Below, in pieces: positions 1,615 through 11,054 of a stretch of 64,000 nt of DNA. The notes beneath the pieces are model-generated. The model was not told the DNA's origin. It searched no databases and worked only from the letters and a program-made list of their open reading frames with translations. This DNA is from Taxawa tesnikishii (nom. ined.) (Eukaryota > Ascomycota > Dothideomycetes > Dothideales). The stretch spans positions 434,001-498,000 of the forward strand of contig JAPDRO010000013.1 of NCBI GenBank assembly GCA_030247885.1, read 5' to 3'. Position numbers and translations under genes: made by a program. The stretch's first letter is position 1. The number at the start of each line of letters is the position of its first letter.

Positions 1615-3363
1615 ATGATGTGGCCCTCCAAACGGGACCGCTCCAACAGCCCCGACGGTTATGTCAAGAAGAGGCGCATCGGCAGCCAAAATGAGGGCAA
1701 AGCCATGTCGAAGAAGACCTGCGCTAGCTGTGAAACGGAGTTAGCACTGAACCAGTTCCCCAAGCACCGGCGTCCCTCCGCCCATCAGCATGAGCGCAAC
1801 ACCTGTCGCAACTGCTTCCGCAACTGGGTCAACAGCCAGATTGAGAGCAAACCCTGGGATCAGATCGGCTGCCCTGAATGCTCTACTCTGCTGCAGTACG
1901 ACAAAATCAAGGCATTTGCCCAAGAGGCCACTTTCGACAAGTCGGTCATCACTCCTCTGGCCCACCAGGCGCATGACTAATGGGATCCATGTGTAGGTAC
2001 GACAAAGCTGCGTTGAAAGCAGCCATAGCCAACGACCCCGAATTCCGCTTCTGCCTCTCCACTGTCTGCAGCTCTGGTCAACTGCACGCCGCTGGTGCCG
2101 ATGAACCCATCTTCCGCTGCGAAGCTTGCGGCCACCGTCATTGCGTGGTCTGTGAGGTACCATGGCATGAAGGCGAGCTCTGTGTAAATATGCAAGCCAA
2201 GAAGCGTGATGAGGCGGAGTCGGCGAAGAAGGTAGCGGAGATATCGAAGCAGTGCCCGAACTGCAACATCAAGATCGAAAAGAATTATGGTTGCGACCAT
2301 ATGACTTGTAAGCCGCATTCGGACCGGGTTCGGTGTGGATTTGTGAGCTAAAGGAGATGTAGGCAAGATGTGCCGTCATGAGTTCTGCTGGATCTGCCTC
2401 GCGAGCTACGGACGCATCTTTACCCACGGCAATCATATGCACCACAGTGATTGCAAGCACTACCGACCTGTGCCGAGACAGAACCCAGGCGTGAACCTAG
2501 ATCCTCACGAGCGATTTGAGAGAGTGTTGCAACCGGGCCCCGCCCAACCGACTGCGCCACCTCGGGCCGAACCTGCACAGATCCCACAATCAAGGCAACA
2601 AGGCCTCGATGCAAAAGAAGTCAGGAGAACTCATGAGCCTGGAAGGGGATCATTCAGGACGGCTCTTGGACTTTTGAGTTCGTCCAACTATCCGGCAAAC
2701 CAATCAGTCGTGGCAGGTCGTCCCTTCTCCAACCCACTGCAAGCGTACACGCAACAACAGCGACAACGCGACCAGACTCCCATCACTCCAATGGACGCCA
2801 GTCACCAACAAGACCAACCACAAGCTCCTAGCTATCAAGCCGCCATGAGCGCCGCTGTGCGCACTCATCACGAGCAAGCCTCACGCAGCACACCCATTCC
2901 CAAGGTACTGAAAGCTATGACACCGATTTCCGAAACACTGAACATGCCAAGCTCGTCACCCGCCGTCTCTGCCCGATCCATTGTCCGCCAGGCGATCCAG
3001 CCAGATACGCGTCCATCTTCAGAAATGCGCCCGTCTTCAGAGATGCGTCCATCTTCAGGAACCAAATCCACCTCTTCAAGACCTACTGCAGACCAGGTAT
3101 CCTCAGGAGCCACAGTGTCAGTCTTTCTCGACAGGTCTCAGCTAATCGCGTTCGGTACTGTCTGGCAAGTCTTGACCAGGGGTGACCACCTACACGGGAT
3201 CAAGGTTCGGCTGCATGATGGTCGGATTGGCAGAGTCCACCACCGCTTCATGATTCAGATTGAAGAGCAGCTCATGTGGCATGCGTTGACAGTGCTCAGA
3301 TGCACTTACGATCTTTGTGCACTGCTTAGAGGGAAAGTACATACTTCATCAAACAAATTGTGA
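1615..3363 (+). CDS. RBR (RING-IBR-RING) E3 ubiquitin ligase with a YwbE-like C-terminal segment
   Basis: Predicted RBR ubiquitin ligase, which moves ubiquitin through a RING2 cysteine. Exons 1615-1940, 1997-2307 and 2363-3363 give 545 residues. The start is the first ATG in frame (MMWPSKRD); a long basic head follows. RING1-like cysteines start at CASCE (about residue 40) and end at CPEC. The IBR has FRCEACGHRHCVVC. RING2 has CPNCNIKI, then GCDHMTC, whose last Cys is the expected catalytic residue, then CRHEFCWIC and a His/Cys tail (HMHHSDC). About 200 residues of Pro/Ser/Gln-rich linker follow, with a triplicated RPSSEM-type motif. Near residues 460-505 comes VSVFLDRSQ...VLTRGD...HGIKVRLHDGRIGRV, which resembles the small YwbE/DUF2196 domain. 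RBR identity is firm; substrate unknown. Confidence 0.9.
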
Positions 3364-5738
3364 CGAGGATCCACTGTCTTCTTTGTCATCTAGCAGATGT
3401 TCACACGGTTAGCTGACATGAGTTCCCTCAGGATTCACGTGCCTTATCCCCAAGTCTGCTTACCGCCCCTCTGAGCGCGTTTACCCTGCTGTTCCTACTA
3501 GAGTCCGCTCCGCGTTTTCCTCCCCTCTCCTCGACCTAGTCGTGACCCACATATAGCGACTCCGGACTTCTTCGCACCCACAGTTTACAGTGTCCCCTCT
3601 GCGATTCAGTAAAGTACGTCTGCTTAATCCCTGTGGATACACTCGAGCCTCGTCCGCTCATGCACTGCCAGATCGCATAACTAGAAGCCTTTGACAATCC
3701 TCGAAGGAGACGGTTGGCTACGCTCGCCGTCACCCGGGATGCCAAGAGCACTCGTGACAACGATGGGGGCGACAATCAAGAAGACCAGAAGGGTCACCAC
3801 AACAACTGAGGCGTCGACCGCCACAACGGCAAGAACGAAGACGACGACACAGGGTGAGGAGACAATGAGCCCTGCTGGAAGCCATACGGGCAGCTCGGGA
3901 TGTGGCCGTGATGATGACCGCCCTTCGCGTGCCGGACGCCGTGCTCAGCGTGGTCATGGCGTTGGACGGGATGCTAATCGTGGCATCGCCGTTTCTGCCC
4001 CTTGTGGAGGTGGTTCCAGTTGTGGTCGTGGCGCTGCCGTTGGGGGTCAGGGAAATCGAGACTACACTGGTTAAGCCTGAGAGCATGCCCAAGGGTCCGA
4101 GAGAAATTCGATGCATCAAGATAGGGCAGCGTTCGGAGCAGTTCATAGAATCCGGGTACGGCTCTCACAGTGTCGTCGCGCAAACACATGCCGTTGTGAC
4201 GTTGAGATTTACTCTAAGTTAAGGTGTACGCCGTCACTACCGCACGTCGTCCCCAGACGCCAGAGTCCCACCGGCACGGTTTGACGGAATTCAAAGCCCG
4301 ACCCTTTGGAGTGGGACCGTGCGGCGCGAGCAGGCATGAACGGTGCACAGACATGGTACGAGCGAGAAAGAGGGACGGAGGCGCAAAGGCGGTCAAGTGC
4401 AAGCGGGGTTGGGGAGGACATGTGATATGGATGAAGAGGATGGACAGGAGCTGGGGGCTGCCGAGATCGAAAAGGGCGGAACTGTTGAATAGCGCGTTCT
4501 GAAGCGGAACGATGCGATGAATGACTGCAGTCGCGGGGCGTCCGAGTATCAGCAAAGACATGGGACGGAACAGACTTGTTCGACCGGGTACGAAAAAATT
4601 AAACCCCTGCTCGTCGGTAAGAAAACACCCCAGGTTTCAGCCTCCCTGCGAGAGGTCCGGTGTCTTGCAGCAAGACACGGGAGAGATCAGGGAGATACGG
4701 TAGGAGCGAGGATGCACCGATCCGCCGCAAGACAGCGCTGCAATGCCCAGGCCCTGATCTCTCGCCACGGCTTGATGCATTTGCCACTTTCAATCACGGC
4801 TTTCGTGCTTACACGAGATGGGATTACACGAGGCGCTTTGCCTGCAGACGGGGAAAGCCACAGCCGTGTTGTAGGATCACGAGCCAGGCCGGTGCTGGGC
4901 GCTAAACGTAGCGAGGCTGAGCCAGCGTGTGGAGTTGCACACACGGCGTCGAGAAAAGGGTCCGGTATGTGTGGGCAGTGACGCTACCATGTGACCTCCT
5001 TCCCAATGGAACGCAAACCGATTAAAGGAGTCCGGCAACAATCAAGCGAGAGTCCAAGCCCGTTATGGCTTGAGTCGTTGGCTTATTTCTCTTCTATCCC
5101 GTGCTTAGCCATCTTTATACACATTAGACCACCAATCACTGATCGGACCCATCACGTCTCGTATCCGTGTGCAACCATCAAACCCATCACCGTCTAGGCG
5201 GTCCACCAGTTCGGGGAACACAAGTACTCTGGTACCCTAGAATACTGACCGCTTACTCGTCGAAACCCAACTCTTACCCGCGCCCCTCAACGTCATTCGT
5301 CCGATTCGGGCGCGACGAAGACCATCAGGCACGCGAGATTGTGGATCTTCTGGAGCTCTATCTAGAAGCGCGGCCTTCAGTGACTATCCCGCCTAATGCA
5401 AGGCCACTCGAGAGCCATGGCGCAATGTGCCGCTTTCGTTCCTATCTTTGGCACCGGGGCCTCCTCCATTTCGCTTGATGTGCCTCGATCTTGACCGTGG
5501 CTAGCTTAAGCAACACGAGAACGACCTGCTTTGGGTCAATTGGGCATCGCCAAGCGAAAAAATCTCATAGTCATGCTGCACCCTGCAATGTGACTATGCC
5601 AACTATTGTTTCTAGTTCCCTGGACTGAGGCAGCACACCGTATCTCGAGCATGGGGACGCCGGCCGCCACTGTGGTGCAGAGGGTACATAGTTGCCCACT
5701 GTCCCACCATGCCAGAGACAGGTATCATTCGGGCTGAC
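3364..5738. other. Intergenic region, no convincing gene
   Basis: About 2.4 kb between the RBR ligase and the peroxidase-oxidase gene. Several overlapping open frames exist on both strands (for example 4214-4561 minus and 4517-4981 plus), but none has a recognisable domain or a consistent exon pattern. The one frame with protein-like character is listed separately (3681-3944, minus). The last few hundred bases should hold the promoter of the downstream secreted protein. Confidence 0.5.
3681..3944 (-). pseudogene. Possible membrane-protein fragment, two hydrophobic segments
   Basis: This 87-codon minus-strand frame has no ATG but reads like a protein: LPAGLIVSSPCVVVFVLAVV, then SVVVVTLLVFLIVAPIVVTS, then a hydrophilic tail ending RIVKGF and a stop. 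Another frame just upstream on the same strand (3950-4120) is Ser/Thr-rich (TTTTGTTSTRG). The two could be parts of one small Ser/Thr-rich membrane protein separated by an intron or a frame error. No family was recognised. The hydrophobic stretch could also be chance, since GTC/GTT repeats encode valine. Confidence 0.2.
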
Positions 5739-8700
5739 ATGATGGCTAGGTGGTTGTTGTTCCTTGCATTGACTGCGTCGATCCTGCGCTCCGCGGCGGG
5801 ACTGCCGACATGGCCGTCCTCCGTGGACGAGCTTGAAGATATCATGTTCCTCAACACTGGCTACCAAGCCCGAGCCTTTCCCGACACCATCACACCATGC
5901 AACTTCTCTCAGGAGGGGCCATCACGGATAGGCTCAGCAGAATGGTTGCGCACAGCATTCCACGATATGGCTACGGGAAATGTCTTGACTGGAATTGGAG
6001 GACTGGATGCTTCTTTGCAGTATGAATTGGGAGGTAACGGCGGCGAGAATATCGGATCTGCCTTCAACTCCACTCTGGCAACGTACGGCGAGTTCTTCTC
6101 ATCGCGCGCATCGATGGCTGATCTTATTGCCATGGGTGTTTACGCATCCGTCCGAGTGTGCGGCGGACCCATCATTCCCATCAGGACAGGCCGAATCGAC
6201 GCCACGGAAGCCGGTGCGGTCGGAGTACCTCAACCTCAGAATTCGCAATATACTTTCATCCAGCAATTCGCACGTATGGGCTTCAACACCTCTGAGATGA
6301 TCGCCCTTACCGCGTGCGGTCACACGATCGGAGGCGTGCACGCTGGCAATTTTCCGGAAGTAGTAAAGCCAGGGACCGTTGCCAACGACTACCAACACTT
6401 TGACTCGACAACATCCTTCGATGAGAAGATTGCTTCTTCTTACGCCAACGGAACCAGCACTGATCCGCTGGCAGGCACACTCGCCAGGCAAAATACATTC
6501 GATTCGGACAATGCTGTCTTCACCGCAGATAATAATGTCACCATCAAGAAGATGGCCAGCCCGTCATACTTCCAATCTCGCTGCCAGACCATGCTTCAGC
6601 GAATGATCGAGGTGGTCCCGTCAGGCGTGAGCTTAACGGACGCGATTACTCCTTACGAGGTCAAGCCAAGCAACCTGCAGCTGACCGTCCAACCCGGTGG
6701 TACTGAACTGCAGTTCACGGGCCGAATCCGTATACGTACAACCAACCTACCGGCTAACAGCATCTCGAACGTTCAGCTCGTGTATGTTGACCGTAACGGA
6801 GCATCCACTTGCGGCTCCTGCACTATCTCGACCCTGAAGGCTGGAACTGCAAACGGTTTCGATGACTCTTTCATTGTAAGTTCTCCACCATTATGAACAT
6901 GGCCATCACTAACTGCGTCGGTCAACAGTTCTATGAATTTAGCACTACACTGTCGGCTGCCAGCTCCATTTCGGCGTTCAAGGTGCAAGTGACTGCCAGT
7001 GGTGACACAGTCACCTATGACAACAATGGAAAGGGATTCCCAATCCAGGACAACGTCCTGTTCCAGAGCCCGCAAAGTTGCGTATCCACTAAATTCGACG
7101 CAAGCGGTAAGCAGACGATGACTGTCACTGCGGCGGTCCGTGGTTCGATTCCTGGCAATGTGACTCTTTCTGTCGAAGTCAAGACACCTCGATCCTGCTG
7201 CGTGGTTCCGGGCTTGTCTACAGCCAACGTGACAATGCAGAAGTCGGCGACTATCGGCTCATACATCCTGTATGCGGGCACTTATTCTCTTACATCCGAT
7301 CAGATCACATCATCGAAGTTCAGCATCTTCGCAAGCAACTACTCAGACAGCTTCAAGGACACTGCGCTCACGGGCGAGTGTGGCGCCTTGAACGGCTCAA
7401 CACCGGTCTCATCTAGCAGCAGCAGCAGCAGCAGCATTGCCTCGACTTCTTCGGCGATACTGTCTAGCTCCACTGTTGCTCCAATGAGCACAACCTCGAG
7501 CTCCAAGTCGACGACTGTCGCATCCTCCTCCTCGGTTTCTTCAAAGCCTTCAACATCGAGTACTGCTGCGGTCAGCTCGACTACCTCAATTACCATTGCT
7601 CCAGTCAGTTCGATTACCTCAAGTACTACAGCTCCAGTCAGTTCGACCGCTTCAAGCACTACTGTGCCTCCCGTCACTACTTCAAAGAGCACCGTAACCA
7701 GTGCCAGTGTCAGCACCAATGCTGCCCAAACCGGATGGATTTCCCTGGGATGCTACAATGATACTGTTGCAGCACGTGTACTTTCTCACAACGTCGCTGT
7801 CTTGGGAGGTCCGACAAATATGACCGTTGAGAACTGTGAGGCTGCTTGCAAAGCTGGCGGCTGGGCAATCGCCGGAGTAGAGTACAGTGGCGAATGTTAC
7901 TGTGACAGTCAGTTCAGAAACTATGGTACTACTGCCTCCGACGGAAACGCAGGGTGCACCATGACGTGCAACGGAGCCCCCAAGCAGAGCTGTGGAGGTC
8001 CCAACAGGCTCAACGTGTATTCGTTCGCGAGCACGACATCTTCAATTGCCTCTTCGACAATGTCTACTCCGACGACCCCAACAAGCACAACATCTTCAAT
8101 TGCCACTTTGACAACGTCTACTCAGAAACCGACGACCCCAACGAGCACGACCGTCTCTGCTCAATCCTCCAGCACTGCTCCGGCAGTCACTAGCGCGACC
8201 GTACTCAGTGGCTGGGTGAGCATGGGTTGCTACAACGACTCTGTCGCCAGCAGGGTGCTTTCGTACAATGCAAACGTTCAAGGTGGCCCCACCAACGTTT
8301 CTGTGGAGAGCTGCGAAGCTGCATGCTTCAAGGCAGGATACATCTACGCCGGAGTAGAGTATTCTGGAGAATGCAGATGCGACAGCACCATCCGCAACTA
8401 TGGAGCTACTGCCACAGCTGGATGCACGATGACCTGCAGCGGCAATCCGACCGAGATGTGCGGTGGCGCCAATCGCCAGAATATGTTCAGGTATTACTCG
8501 ACAGCTACCACCGTGGGCCAATCTCCGTCCACCTCGACTGTTGTCACGTCTGTATCCTTAACCATTGTTACGTCCACCTCCTCGACCGTCGTCCTGTCCA
8601 CTTCCTCAACTCTTGTTACATCCACCTCCTCGACTGGGGTCGCATCCAACCCCTCTACTGTGGTCCCTTCCGCTCCAACCGCTCCATCCGCCTCTGGAAG

Positions 8701-11054
8701 TGTCAAGGACGGCCCAACGATCACGAGTAGCCCGACAACATCTACTGCTTCGTCAATTATCAGCGTCACTAGCGTATCTCCGACCGCGTCTGGTCTGCCC
8801 GTCGGATGGTCTTACCAAGGCTGCTATGTGGATAACAACGCTTACGGCCGTATAATGATCAACCAACAGAACGATGACCATCAGCTGACCATCGAAACCT
8901 GCATCGCAGATTGTGCTGCCCTCAACTACACCGTGGCGGGCATGGAATATTCCTACCAGTGTTTCTGCGACAATTACCTTCGCAACAATGCTTCGCTCGC
9001 AAGCTCCAACTCCCAATGCGCAATGACCTGCGCTGGTAACACTAAAGAGGTCTGTGGTGGCCCCAACCTTTTGAGCATCTACTCCACTGGCAAAGTTCAA
9101 GTTCTGCCTGTCCCGACGCAGCAGACGAAGAACTTACCCGGAAACTGGGTGTACAAAGGATGTCTTCAGGACAACGTCAACGGCACGAGGACATTTCCAT
9201 ATCAACTCATCTACCAGACCAACAACTCCGCTACTACGTGTCTTTCACGCTGCCAGGCGTACGGATTCCCGGCCGGCGGTATGGAGTACGGTCAACAGTG
9301 CTTCTGCGGTGACCCTTCCGACATTGGCCCGGGTGTGCAATTCGTCCCCGACTCTAAGTGTAACATGCTTTGCACTGGCGAGAACTACTACTGCGGAGCC
9401 GGCAACTTGATCAGTTACTACGAGTGGGAGGGTACGCCTTTGTACAAATGGAACTATGCTTCCGGAAACGATGCTGGCCAGTACAAGTTCCTAATCGGAG
9501 GTGTCGTGGTGCCTCTGATGACGACTGTCAATATCAATGGCAAGGTGACATTCTTGGAGAAAGTCGGCACTGGACCGGCAAACACCACCGGCGCTTACGA
9601 GTTCGATCCGTACTACGAGAATGATTTCGACAAGGCATGGCGTCCGATGCACATCAAGACGGACATCTTCTGCTCGGCTGGTCTCGTCCTCCCAGATAAG
9701 GCAGGAAGACAACTCACTATTGGTGGATGGTCAGGTGTCTCGACGGAGGGTGTTCGTCTCTACTGGCCAGATGGCTCGCCAGGCAACGCAAGTGTCAACG
9801 ACTGGCAGGAGAATGCAAACGAACTCTCTCTGCAGAACGGCCGGTGGTACCCCTCCAGCATGATCATGGCGAACGGATCAATCCTTGTGGTCGGTGGCGA
9901 GACGGGCTCCAATGGTCCACCTGTCCCGACCATTGAGATCTTGCCTCAAGTCGGTCCTACGCTCTACATGGACTGGCTGAAGCGGACTGATCCCAATAAC
10001 CTGTATCCCTTCATTGCAGTTTTGCCTAGCAAGACGGTCCTGGCTGCTTACTACAACGAGGCTCGCTTGCTGGATGAGGTCACCTTCGAAACGGTTCGGA
10101 CGCTGCCAAATATGCCCGGCGCCGTTAACAACGATGCGGGTGGGCGTACTTACCCGCTCGAAGGTACCATGATGTTCTTCCCTCAGTACGCTCCGTACAC
10201 AGATCCCGTCCGTGTCCTCGTTTGCGGTGGTTCGACCCCTTACGCTGGCGATGCGCTTGACAGCTGTCTGTCTATCCAACCTGACGTGCCAGGGCAGAAC
10301 TGGACCTTGGAACGCATGGTGAGTCATATCCCCATCAGCTTACAGTTTTCAGATGCTGACAAACACTCTCTAGCCTTCGAAACGTGTCATGTCTTGCATG
10401 ACTCCTCTCCCGGACGGCACCTTCCTGATCTTAAACGGCGCCGTCCAGGGCGTTGCCGGCTTCGGTCTCGCCACCCAGCCCAACTTCAATGCCATCCTCT
10501 ACGACCCTTCCAAGCCAGTCAACCAGCGCATGACAGTCATGGCCAACACCACCATCGCCCGTCTCTACCACTCCGAAGCAGTCCTTATGCCCGACGGCCG
10601 CGTGCTCGTGTCCGGCTCCGACCCCGAAGAACCCAGCAACCCGCAAGAGTACCGCGTCGAGGTCTTCCTGCCGCCATACATCCTCTCCGGCGCCCCTCGC
10701 CCGGCCTACACCATCGCCGACAACCAGAAGGACTGGTCGTACGGCTCAAGCCACACCATCACCGTCACCGCCGGCAACGTCGCAAACCTCAAGGTCTCCT
10801 TGATCGGCGTCATCTCCACCACCCATGGCAACAGCTTCGGCCACCGCACTTTCTTCCCCGCTTTCAGCTGCTCGGGCAACCAATGCACCATCACTGCTCC
10901 TCCTGACCAGTGGACGTGTCCGCCTGGTTGGTTCCATCTTTTCATTCTTGATGGGTCTACCCCTTCCGTCAGTACCTTCGTCCGCATTGGGGGCGATCCT
11001 GGAAAGTTGGGCAACTGGCCCAATCTGCCGGACTTTAAAGTTCCGGGTATTTAA
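5739..11054 (+). CDS. Secreted fusion: heme peroxidase + 4 WSC domains + glyoxal oxidase-like copper-radical oxidase
   Basis: Exons 5739-6875, 6929-10318 and 10374-11054 give 1,735 residues (1,745 from the upstream ATG at 5709; 5739 puts a signal peptide, MMARWLLFLALTASI, at the very N-terminus). Residue numbers count from 5709. Residues 40-300 are a class II-like peroxidase: distal R81 and H85 in WLRTAFHD, proximal H205 in ACGHTIGG. Ser/Thr-rich linkers follow, with four WSC domains near 658-756, 817-913, 1013-1110 and 1126-1222, each with GC(Y/L), EYS(G/Y)-like and CGG/CGA cysteine motifs. From 1225 on it is a glyoxal oxidase plus DUF1929: C1304 and Y1464 fit the Cys-Tyr cofactor, and Y1584, H1585 and H1670 the copper ligands. 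Inference: the oxidase makes H2O2 for the peroxidase while WSC domains bind glycan. No frame breaks; an AGC repeat lies at 7414-7436. Confidence 0.93.

Follow-up and report, generated by a model that had tools for sequence, protein, structure and literature searches.

A 64,000-nucleotide stretch of the Taxawa tesnikishii genome (contig JAPDRO010000013.1, positions 434,001 to 498,000 of the forward strand; hereafter the window) carries a single gene whose product joins a heme peroxidase and a copper radical oxidase (CRO) in one chain (Table 1). From the N terminus, the chain consists of a signal-like segment, a hybrid-B-type heme peroxidase, two beta domains, Ser/Thr linkers, four WSC domains and a CRO of family AA5_1. 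A Pfam scan of the chain returned the peroxidase, four WSC, Glyoxal_oxid_N and GO-like_E_set, each above its own cut-off. A first-pass annotation of this DNA had described a continuous three-exon frame of about 1,735 residues and four WSC domains lying between two catalytic centres; the former was borne out by the in-frame, stop-free join of the exons and the latter by Pfam. Published work is cited below from the passages found in the open-licence literature searched.

The joint between the peroxidase and CRO parts sits within exon 2. As this exon (3,390 nt, 1,130 codons) contains no stop in its own frame, compared with 28 and 32 in the other two, the joint is not a chance one. The N-terminal hydrophobic segment is the strongest in the chain on the Kyte-Doolittle scale (2.58), and the runner-up, at M1357 (1.8), lies within the oxidase fold. 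A second gene start inside the chain was ruled out, as the only candidates, M1286 (1.6) and M1357, are both within the oxidase and the single strong signal-like segment is N-terminal. Both splice points are crossed without insertion or deletion by P0001, a protein model of Talaromyces atroroseus. Seven of ten relatives' gene calls leave the alignment at intron 1 just past GFDDSF, as expected from an unspliced intron at the same place, and the remaining three do not contain that search word. Third-position guanine-plus-cytosine (GC) content, taken per 100 codons, ranges from 0.46 to 0.82 along the gene and peaks in exon 3, not at the joint. We therefore take the fusion to be real at the DNA level. 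The start codon may equally be the ATG at 5742, and several relatives begin with MA.W. With the start at 5739, the residue numbers of the first-pass annotation must be lowered by 10; they fit an upstream ATG at 5709.

The C-terminal part matched PF07250 (Glyoxal_oxid_N) at residues 1281-1480 (85.6 bits, cut-off 37.5, E 4e-24) and PF09118 (GO-like_E_set) at residues 1618-1714 (72 bits, cut-off 25, E 5.3e-20). Aligned with PDB 9N3U, the AA5_1 oxidase FgrAldOx, the window CRO scored 705 bits over 621 residues; with the Kelch-named chains 6ryv, 6ryw and 6ryx it scored about 35 bits (6RYX is a Colletotrichum graminicola copper oxidase, which we take to be of AA5_2). On these alignments, the window CRO is assigned to AA5_1, not AA5_2. 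In FgrAldOx, C450 is cross-linked to Y510, with W509 adjacent, and the site further includes Y738, H739 and H826 (PMC13094651). The 9N3U alignment brings C450, W509, Y510, Y738, H739 and H826 onto C1294, W1352, Y1353, Y1574, H1575 and H1660 of the window, and the third-sphere W469 onto W1313; all seven window residues recur in every one of the 121 oxidase rows (window included). Y1454, within GRTYPLEG, is likewise invariant in the 121 rows, and because both tyrosines are so conserved, invariance alone is indecisive between Y1454 and Y1353. Among the five CRO residues named in the first-pass annotation, C1304, Y1584, H1585 and H1670 are the right residues under shifted numbers (C1294, Y1574, H1575 and H1660). 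The fifth, Y1464 (Y1454 in our numbering), was ruled out as the cofactor tyrosine in favour of Y1353 by the 9N3U alignment and by the Cys-Tyr spacing, which is 59 in the window and 59-60 in FgrAldOx (C450-Y510) and TrLOx (Cys252-Tyr311; PMC8400822).

The N-terminal part matched PF00141 at residues 67-261 (89 bits, cut-off 27). R71, H75 and H195, conserved in 43 of 43 peroxidase rows including the window's, are the ligands given earlier as R81, H85 and H205, so that the residues stand and only their numbering changes. Judged by the residues present at each site, both catalytic centres are complete. According to PMC8945051, the motif S-F-X-G-X-I/V-R-V/I-R-T-T after the peroxidase domain occurs, among peroxidases, in hybrid B only; QFTGRIRIRTT of the window matches it from F onward, with Q replacing S. 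When a second hybrid B motif, L/M/V-T-I/V-T/S-A-A-V-R-A-D-R-I, was compared with MTVTAAVRGSIP of the window, positions 1-8 fitted and the last four differed. By its Pfam domain and motif, the window peroxidase is assigned to the hybrid B type. A fold search returned no match to the beta domains, because peroxidase rows filled the match list, and the predicted model of a relative, P0206, shows two beta-rich stretches in the beta region. A likeness of hybrid B beta domains to CBM21 and CBM34 has been published.

Between the two catalytic parts, PF01822 (WSC) matched over four stretches (212.7 bits), each with eight Cys; WSC domains have about 90-100 residues with eight conserved Cys. Linkers one to three measure 108, 61 and 103 residues (272 in total) and are 52-62% Ser+Thr, whereas those further along are short and lack this enrichment. 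According to work cited in PMC8400822, xylan and chitin/beta-1,3-glucan are ligands of a WSC domain in a related protein.

Table 1. Features of the peroxidase-WSC-CRO gene, in window coordinates; aa, amino acid residues of the predicted chain.
Feature	Position	Strand	Details
Whole gene	5739-11054	+	three exons, 1,735-residue protein
Exons	5739-6875, 6929-10318, 10374-11051 (+stop to 11054)	+	in-frame join, without stop
Signal-peptide-like segment, aa 1-21	5739..5801	+	Met-plus-hydrophobic stretch, Kyte-Doolittle 2.58
Heme peroxidase domain, aa 22-300	5802..6638	+	distal R71, F74, H75, N104; proximal H195, D257
Two beta domains, first part, aa 301-379	6639..6875	+	exon 1; motif FTGRIRIRTT; beta strands in models
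Intron 1	6876..6928	+	53 nt, GT..AG
Two beta domains, rest, aa 380-538	6929..7405	+	exon 2; 70% identity to P0001 over 301-538
Ser/Thr-rich linker L1, aa 539-646	7406..7729	+	62% S+T; contains peroxidase/CRO joint
WSC 1, aa 647-744	7730..8023	+	CRO-type, 8 Cys
WSC 2, aa 806-900	8207..8491	+	CRO-type, sister of WSC1, 8 Cys
WSC 3, aa 1004-1098	8801..9085	+	CRO-type position -2, 8 Cys
WSC 4, aa 1117-1211	9140..9424	+	CRO-type position -1, 8 Cys; adjoins CRO as in PDB 9N3U
AA5_1 CRO, exon 2 part, aa 1225-1509	9464..10318	+	C1294 (9671-9673), W1313, W1352-Y1353 (9845-9850)
Intron 2	10319..10373	+	55 nt, GT..AG
AA5_1 CRO, exon 3 part, aa 1510-1735 and stop	10374..11054	+	Y1574 (10566-10568), H1575 (10569-10571), H1660 (10824-10826)

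Three protein searches, each scoring about 8,000 candidates, supplied 321 proteins for comparison. The peroxidase part gave 82 matches among proteins long enough for a fusion, with CRO domains in P0001 only; the best 120 of 585 matches to the CRO part included a peroxidase in P0001 only; and a third search, with the peroxidase alone, contributed the best 120 of 692 matches among shorter proteins. When the 321 proteins and the window chain were compared by BLAST, a peroxidase was found in 203, a CRO in 121 and both in two, the window chain and P0001. The domain-architecture search for peroxidase-WSC-CRO put forward in the first-pass annotation therefore yields one other protein among the 321, P0001 (T. 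atroroseus UA08_07338, 1,536 aa), with a peroxidase, four WSC and a CRO. The accompanying statement that no enzyme of this full architecture had been described holds for the literature searched, but a T. atroroseus gene model has the same architecture. P0001 is known from the gene model alone, and annotation can merge genes, as with P0002 and P0026, which contain unrelated domains. The matches listed are dominated by single-enzyme proteins with WSCs, chiefly from Ascomycota, and the closest named relatives among them are T. atroroseus followed by several species, presumably of Onygenales, for the peroxidase and by a Myotisia-led mix for the CRO. P0202 is a 100% match to exon 1 of the window gene itself. 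A query of 404 residues from exon 2, mostly CRO, found no relatives in the viral and genome contig collections. Further fusions, or pieces of them, may exist beyond the matches listed.

Two of the fetched proteins have other unusual annotations. P0092 (Clohesyomyces aquaticus, 1,476 aa) is annotated as a WSC-CRO plus PF00722, presumably Glyco_hydro_16, and could be a fusion or a merged gene model. P0055 (Pseudomassariella vexata) is named a copper radical oxidase, yet it has a peroxidase and WSC and no oxidase match; the name is probably a misnomer spread via the shared WSCs.

Identity between the window and T. atroroseus chains is 80.6% in the peroxidase, 70% in the beta region, 31% in the stretch of linker plus WSC1-2, 67% in WSC3, 73% in WSC4 and 82.8% in the CRO. 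WSC trees, built on 94 columns with rows from 10+10 and 8+8 chosen proteins among the 321 and leaving many forks open, grouped WSC3 and WSC4 of both chains with the last two WSCs of WSC-oxidases, and WSC1 and WSC2 of the window with the third and fourth WSCs of these oxidases, counted back from the catalytic module. WSC2 of T. atroroseus grouped with the WSCs of WSC-peroxidases (support 98/80 and 98/89), where the placement of its WSC1 was weak (88 in the Shimodaira-Hasegawa-like approximate likelihood ratio test, SH-aLRT; no small starred set in the second tree). On mean pairwise scores, T. atroroseus WSC1 and WSC2 came closer to the first and second peroxidase WSCs (245 and 298) than to any oxidase position (191 at most), and window WSC1 and WSC2 came closer to oxidase positions (up to 283 and 247) than to the first or second peroxidase WSCs (157 at most). 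Orthology of the first WSC pairs in the two fusions was rejected by the approximately unbiased test (log-likelihood lower by 77.8, p 1.1e-5), with a p value that is somewhat flattering because the constrained clade was named after a quick tree had been inspected. By these comparisons, the joint, which falls in a Ser/Thr-rich linker in both fusions, differs between them: the WSCs of the window are all CRO-type, and T. atroroseus has two peroxidase-type followed by two CRO-type WSCs. Different joints imply either two separate fusion events or a single one followed by reciprocal WSC loss; in the latter case one long ancestral chain would have lost different WSCs in each line, and in the former two genes, perhaps neighbours, would have been joined twice.

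In an oxidase tree of the window and 60 of 120 proteins, the two fusions were sisters (SH-aLRT 100). Peroxidase trees (one of the window and 80 of 196 proteins, another of 33 rows) placed both fusions in a well-supported clade of eight, within which the window stands outside the subset holding T. atroroseus; the 33-row tree was borderline against an exclusive clade of the two (p 0.0498). The other six members, P0203, P0204, P0205, P0207, P0210 and P0219, are gene calls from metagenomes with 77-82% identity to exon 1. Known from these exon 1 calls alone, they may be further fusions.

The T. tesnikishii genome (29.4 Mb, 34 contigs) was searched exon by exon, so that the family counts are lower bounds. 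The CRO family occupies at least two places, the window gene and one on contig C12 without a nearby WSC match. The latter (L015:736-2631, minus strand, G000:C12), also of glyoxal-oxidase type, is 33% identical to the window CRO and has an N-terminal Cys-rich module and no WSC; we take this module to resemble a chitin-binding domain. The peroxidase family occupies at least six places, with a WSC match within about 29 kb only at the window gene; one other place, C4:277554, resembles the window peroxidase (36.6%). A 1,166-residue open frame elsewhere (L017:1476-4976, plus strand, G000:C31) carries four WSC, two on either side of a very long Ser-rich stretch with further Cys-bearing segments, and has no peroxidase or oxidase match.

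Within the window, 20 open frames between 419 and 58234 were scanned (19 of the 31 with at least 230 aa, plus one shorter), of which 14 had a family match and six had none. The families include uracil phosphoribosyltransferase, GH15, methyltransferase, cytochrome P450, pantoate ligase, helicase, Mlh1, ABC transporter and AMP-binding, and the neighbours of the fused gene look ordinary. No additional peroxidase or copper oxidase was found among the 20 frames. At 2347-3360, DUF2196, the sole Pfam match, shares an open frame with a Cys/His-rich stretch, an unusual pairing if real; the stretch is presumably the end of a RING/RBR ubiquitin ligase.

From the architecture, the complete sites and the conservation of both ends, all read from the sequence, we infer a secreted, probably wall- or glycan-bound bifunctional enzyme that is active and coupled in both directions, the CRO feeding the peroxidase with H2O2 and the peroxidase helping to keep the CRO radical; this is the reading we favour, with moderate confidence. 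The WSC-AA5_1 members studied prefer small aldehydes, e.g. methylglyoxal and D-glyceraldehyde (PMC13094651), and make H2O2. The window CRO would oxidise small aldehydes of the methylglyoxal/glyceraldehyde type to acids, turning O2 into H2O2 that the peroxidase domain would consume locally. Deletion of MaGlox changes wall contents (PMC11315307), and enzymes related to the window CRO have roles in growth and stress that are linked to the wall.

The converse coupling, in which the peroxidase activates the CRO, was absent from the first-pass annotation and is proposed here by analogy with published evidence from separate enzymes. In their resting state, copper radical oxidases lack the radical and are inactive. 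Once activated, glyoxal oxidase decays again, with a half-life of 4 h, and continuous reactivation has been called a critical factor (PMC10928124). Peroxidases activate copper radical oxidases when the two are separate enzymes (PMC9770985, PMC10928124), and in Colletotrichum the partner peroxidase turns the oxidase into its radical form, as followed by electron paramagnetic resonance with no substrate (PMC9770985). In the window chain, one-electron chemistry of the peroxidase, direct or via a small mediator, would restore the active radical of the copper site by re-oxidation. The tethered peroxidase would thus serve both uses, as H2O2 consumer and as CRO activator, at fixed stoichiometry, and the chain would feed and re-activate itself at the surface bound by its WSC domains. 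We also put forward, tentatively, a bolder version in which the protein is a self-activating CRO, the attached hybrid-B-type peroxidase being a built-in activator fed by the CRO's own H2O2, and in which such a chain evolved twice with different joints.

Several points weigh against the favoured reading. It was derived from the sequence. The long flexible linkers argue against direct channelling, and with 272 residues of Ser/Thr-rich linker a tight transfer of H2O2 is unlikely. The published pair combines a class II peroxidase with an oxidase of AA5_2, and its authors never found those peroxidases together with other CRO types (PMC9770985). Glyoxal oxidase was activated by the peroxidase-made ABTS radical and not by the peroxidase itself (PMC10928124), so that a mediator may be needed. 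Reverse genetics in Verticillium dahliae gave CROs and peroxidases/catalases no direct role in disease (PMC13390370). Only one other fused protein, the T. atroroseus gene model, is at hand, and a fusion is not needed, because many relatives have the enzymes separately.

Four other explanations were weighed; they overlap with one another and with the favoured reading, so that they are not exclusive and their probabilities do not add to one. The one that survives best, though we consider it rather unlikely, is a real fusion without functional coupling, in which nothing but a promoter and a wall anchor is common to the two enzymes and each works on substrates of its own. The length and Ser/Thr content of the three linkers permit independent action, and relatives with one enzyme only are common; against this, both ends are conserved in both fused chains, and coupling of a CRO with a peroxidase is published for separate enzymes (PMC9770985, PMC10928124). 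Less probable is that the peroxidase serves as a guard, clearing the H2O2 made by the CRO to protect enzyme and wall and not for useful oxidation. Hybrid B peroxidases have been linked to protection from oxidative stress (PMC7463560, PMC8945051) and glyoxal oxidase is inactivated by high H2O2, but this inactivation was only marginal in the cascade of PMC10928124, per its conclusion, and a peroxidase requires an electron donor, none being known for the window enzyme. That the chain is a precursor, cleaved in its linkers once secreted to give a separate peroxidase and WSC-oxidase, with the fusion only fixing a 1:1 ratio, would suit the long Ser/Thr-rich linkers and the position of the joint within such a linker in both fusions; it is doubtful, and against it stands that linkers of this kind are usually O-glycosylated and protected. 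Two adjacent genes or an assembly join read as one is a very improbable explanation, to which merged annotations such as P0002 and P0026 and the uneven third-position GC lend some colour, but which was rejected for the window on the open frame of exon 2 across the joint and the single strong signal-like segment, the GC rise lying away from the joint at exon 3 and a homologous fused model being present in another species.

Each part of the chain is of a known kind. Hybrid B peroxidases with C-terminal WSC (PMC5571214, PMC4232752, PMC8945051) share with the window the N-terminal peroxidase, the FxGx[IV]R[VI]RTT motif and C-terminal WSCs; in the passages found no second catalytic domain is described for them, whereas the window chain has one, and it has no remaining peroxidase-type WSC, because all of its WSCs are oxidase-type. 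WSC-AA5_1 oxidases (FgrAldOx of PDB 9N3U, TrLOx and MaGlox; PMC13094651, PMC8400822, PMC11315307) share the WSC adjoining the catalytic module, the copper-site residues, the consecutive Trp-Tyr and the third-sphere Trp, but their WSCs are N-terminal, whereas in the window a complete peroxidase precedes the WSCs. The Perox-AlcOx tandem of Colletotrichum and Magnaporthe (PMC9770985) likewise pairs a secreted peroxidase with a CRO, which the peroxidase activates; it is encoded by two head-to-head genes, one for an AA5_2 alcohol oxidase and the other for a class II peroxidase, unlike the one gene on one strand, with AA5_1 and a hybrid-B-type peroxidase, of the window. The window chain is best read, by analogy, as a covalent counterpart of this separate pair. 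Lignin peroxidase of Phanerochaete chrysosporium activates an AA5_1 glyoxal oxidase and uses its H2O2 (cited in PMC10928124, PMC13094651), but these are separate proteins of a white-rot basidiomycete, with a peroxidase of another family. T. atroroseus UA08_07338 has the same parts in one annotated chain and differs in its peroxidase-type first two WSCs and in its joint. In animals, dual oxidases (DUOX) combine an H2O2 producer and a peroxidase-like domain in one chain; there the producer is an NADPH oxidase, the peroxidase family is unrelated and the protein is membrane-bound. The passages found in the open-licence literature searched (including PMC3620520) held no description of a single chain with both a peroxidase and a CRO and no built-in peroxidase activator of an AA5_1 oxidase, the separate lignin peroxidase activator being known; nor did they name an activating partner for the WSC-bearing AA5_1 oxidases of ascomycetes. 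A single chain that unites a peroxidase with the CRO that is likely both its H2O2 source and its client thus appears to be undescribed.

Because a CRO that has lost its radical depends on an activator, the natural one-to-one fusion points to a candidate partner for the WSC-AA5_1 oxidases of ascomycetes. A single construct would allow feeding, activation and wall targeting to be tested directly, and the fusion provides a natural blueprint for an oxidase cascade that sustains itself. If the DNA confirms two fusions with distinct joints, this would point to a benefit of joining the two enzymes and not to an accident.

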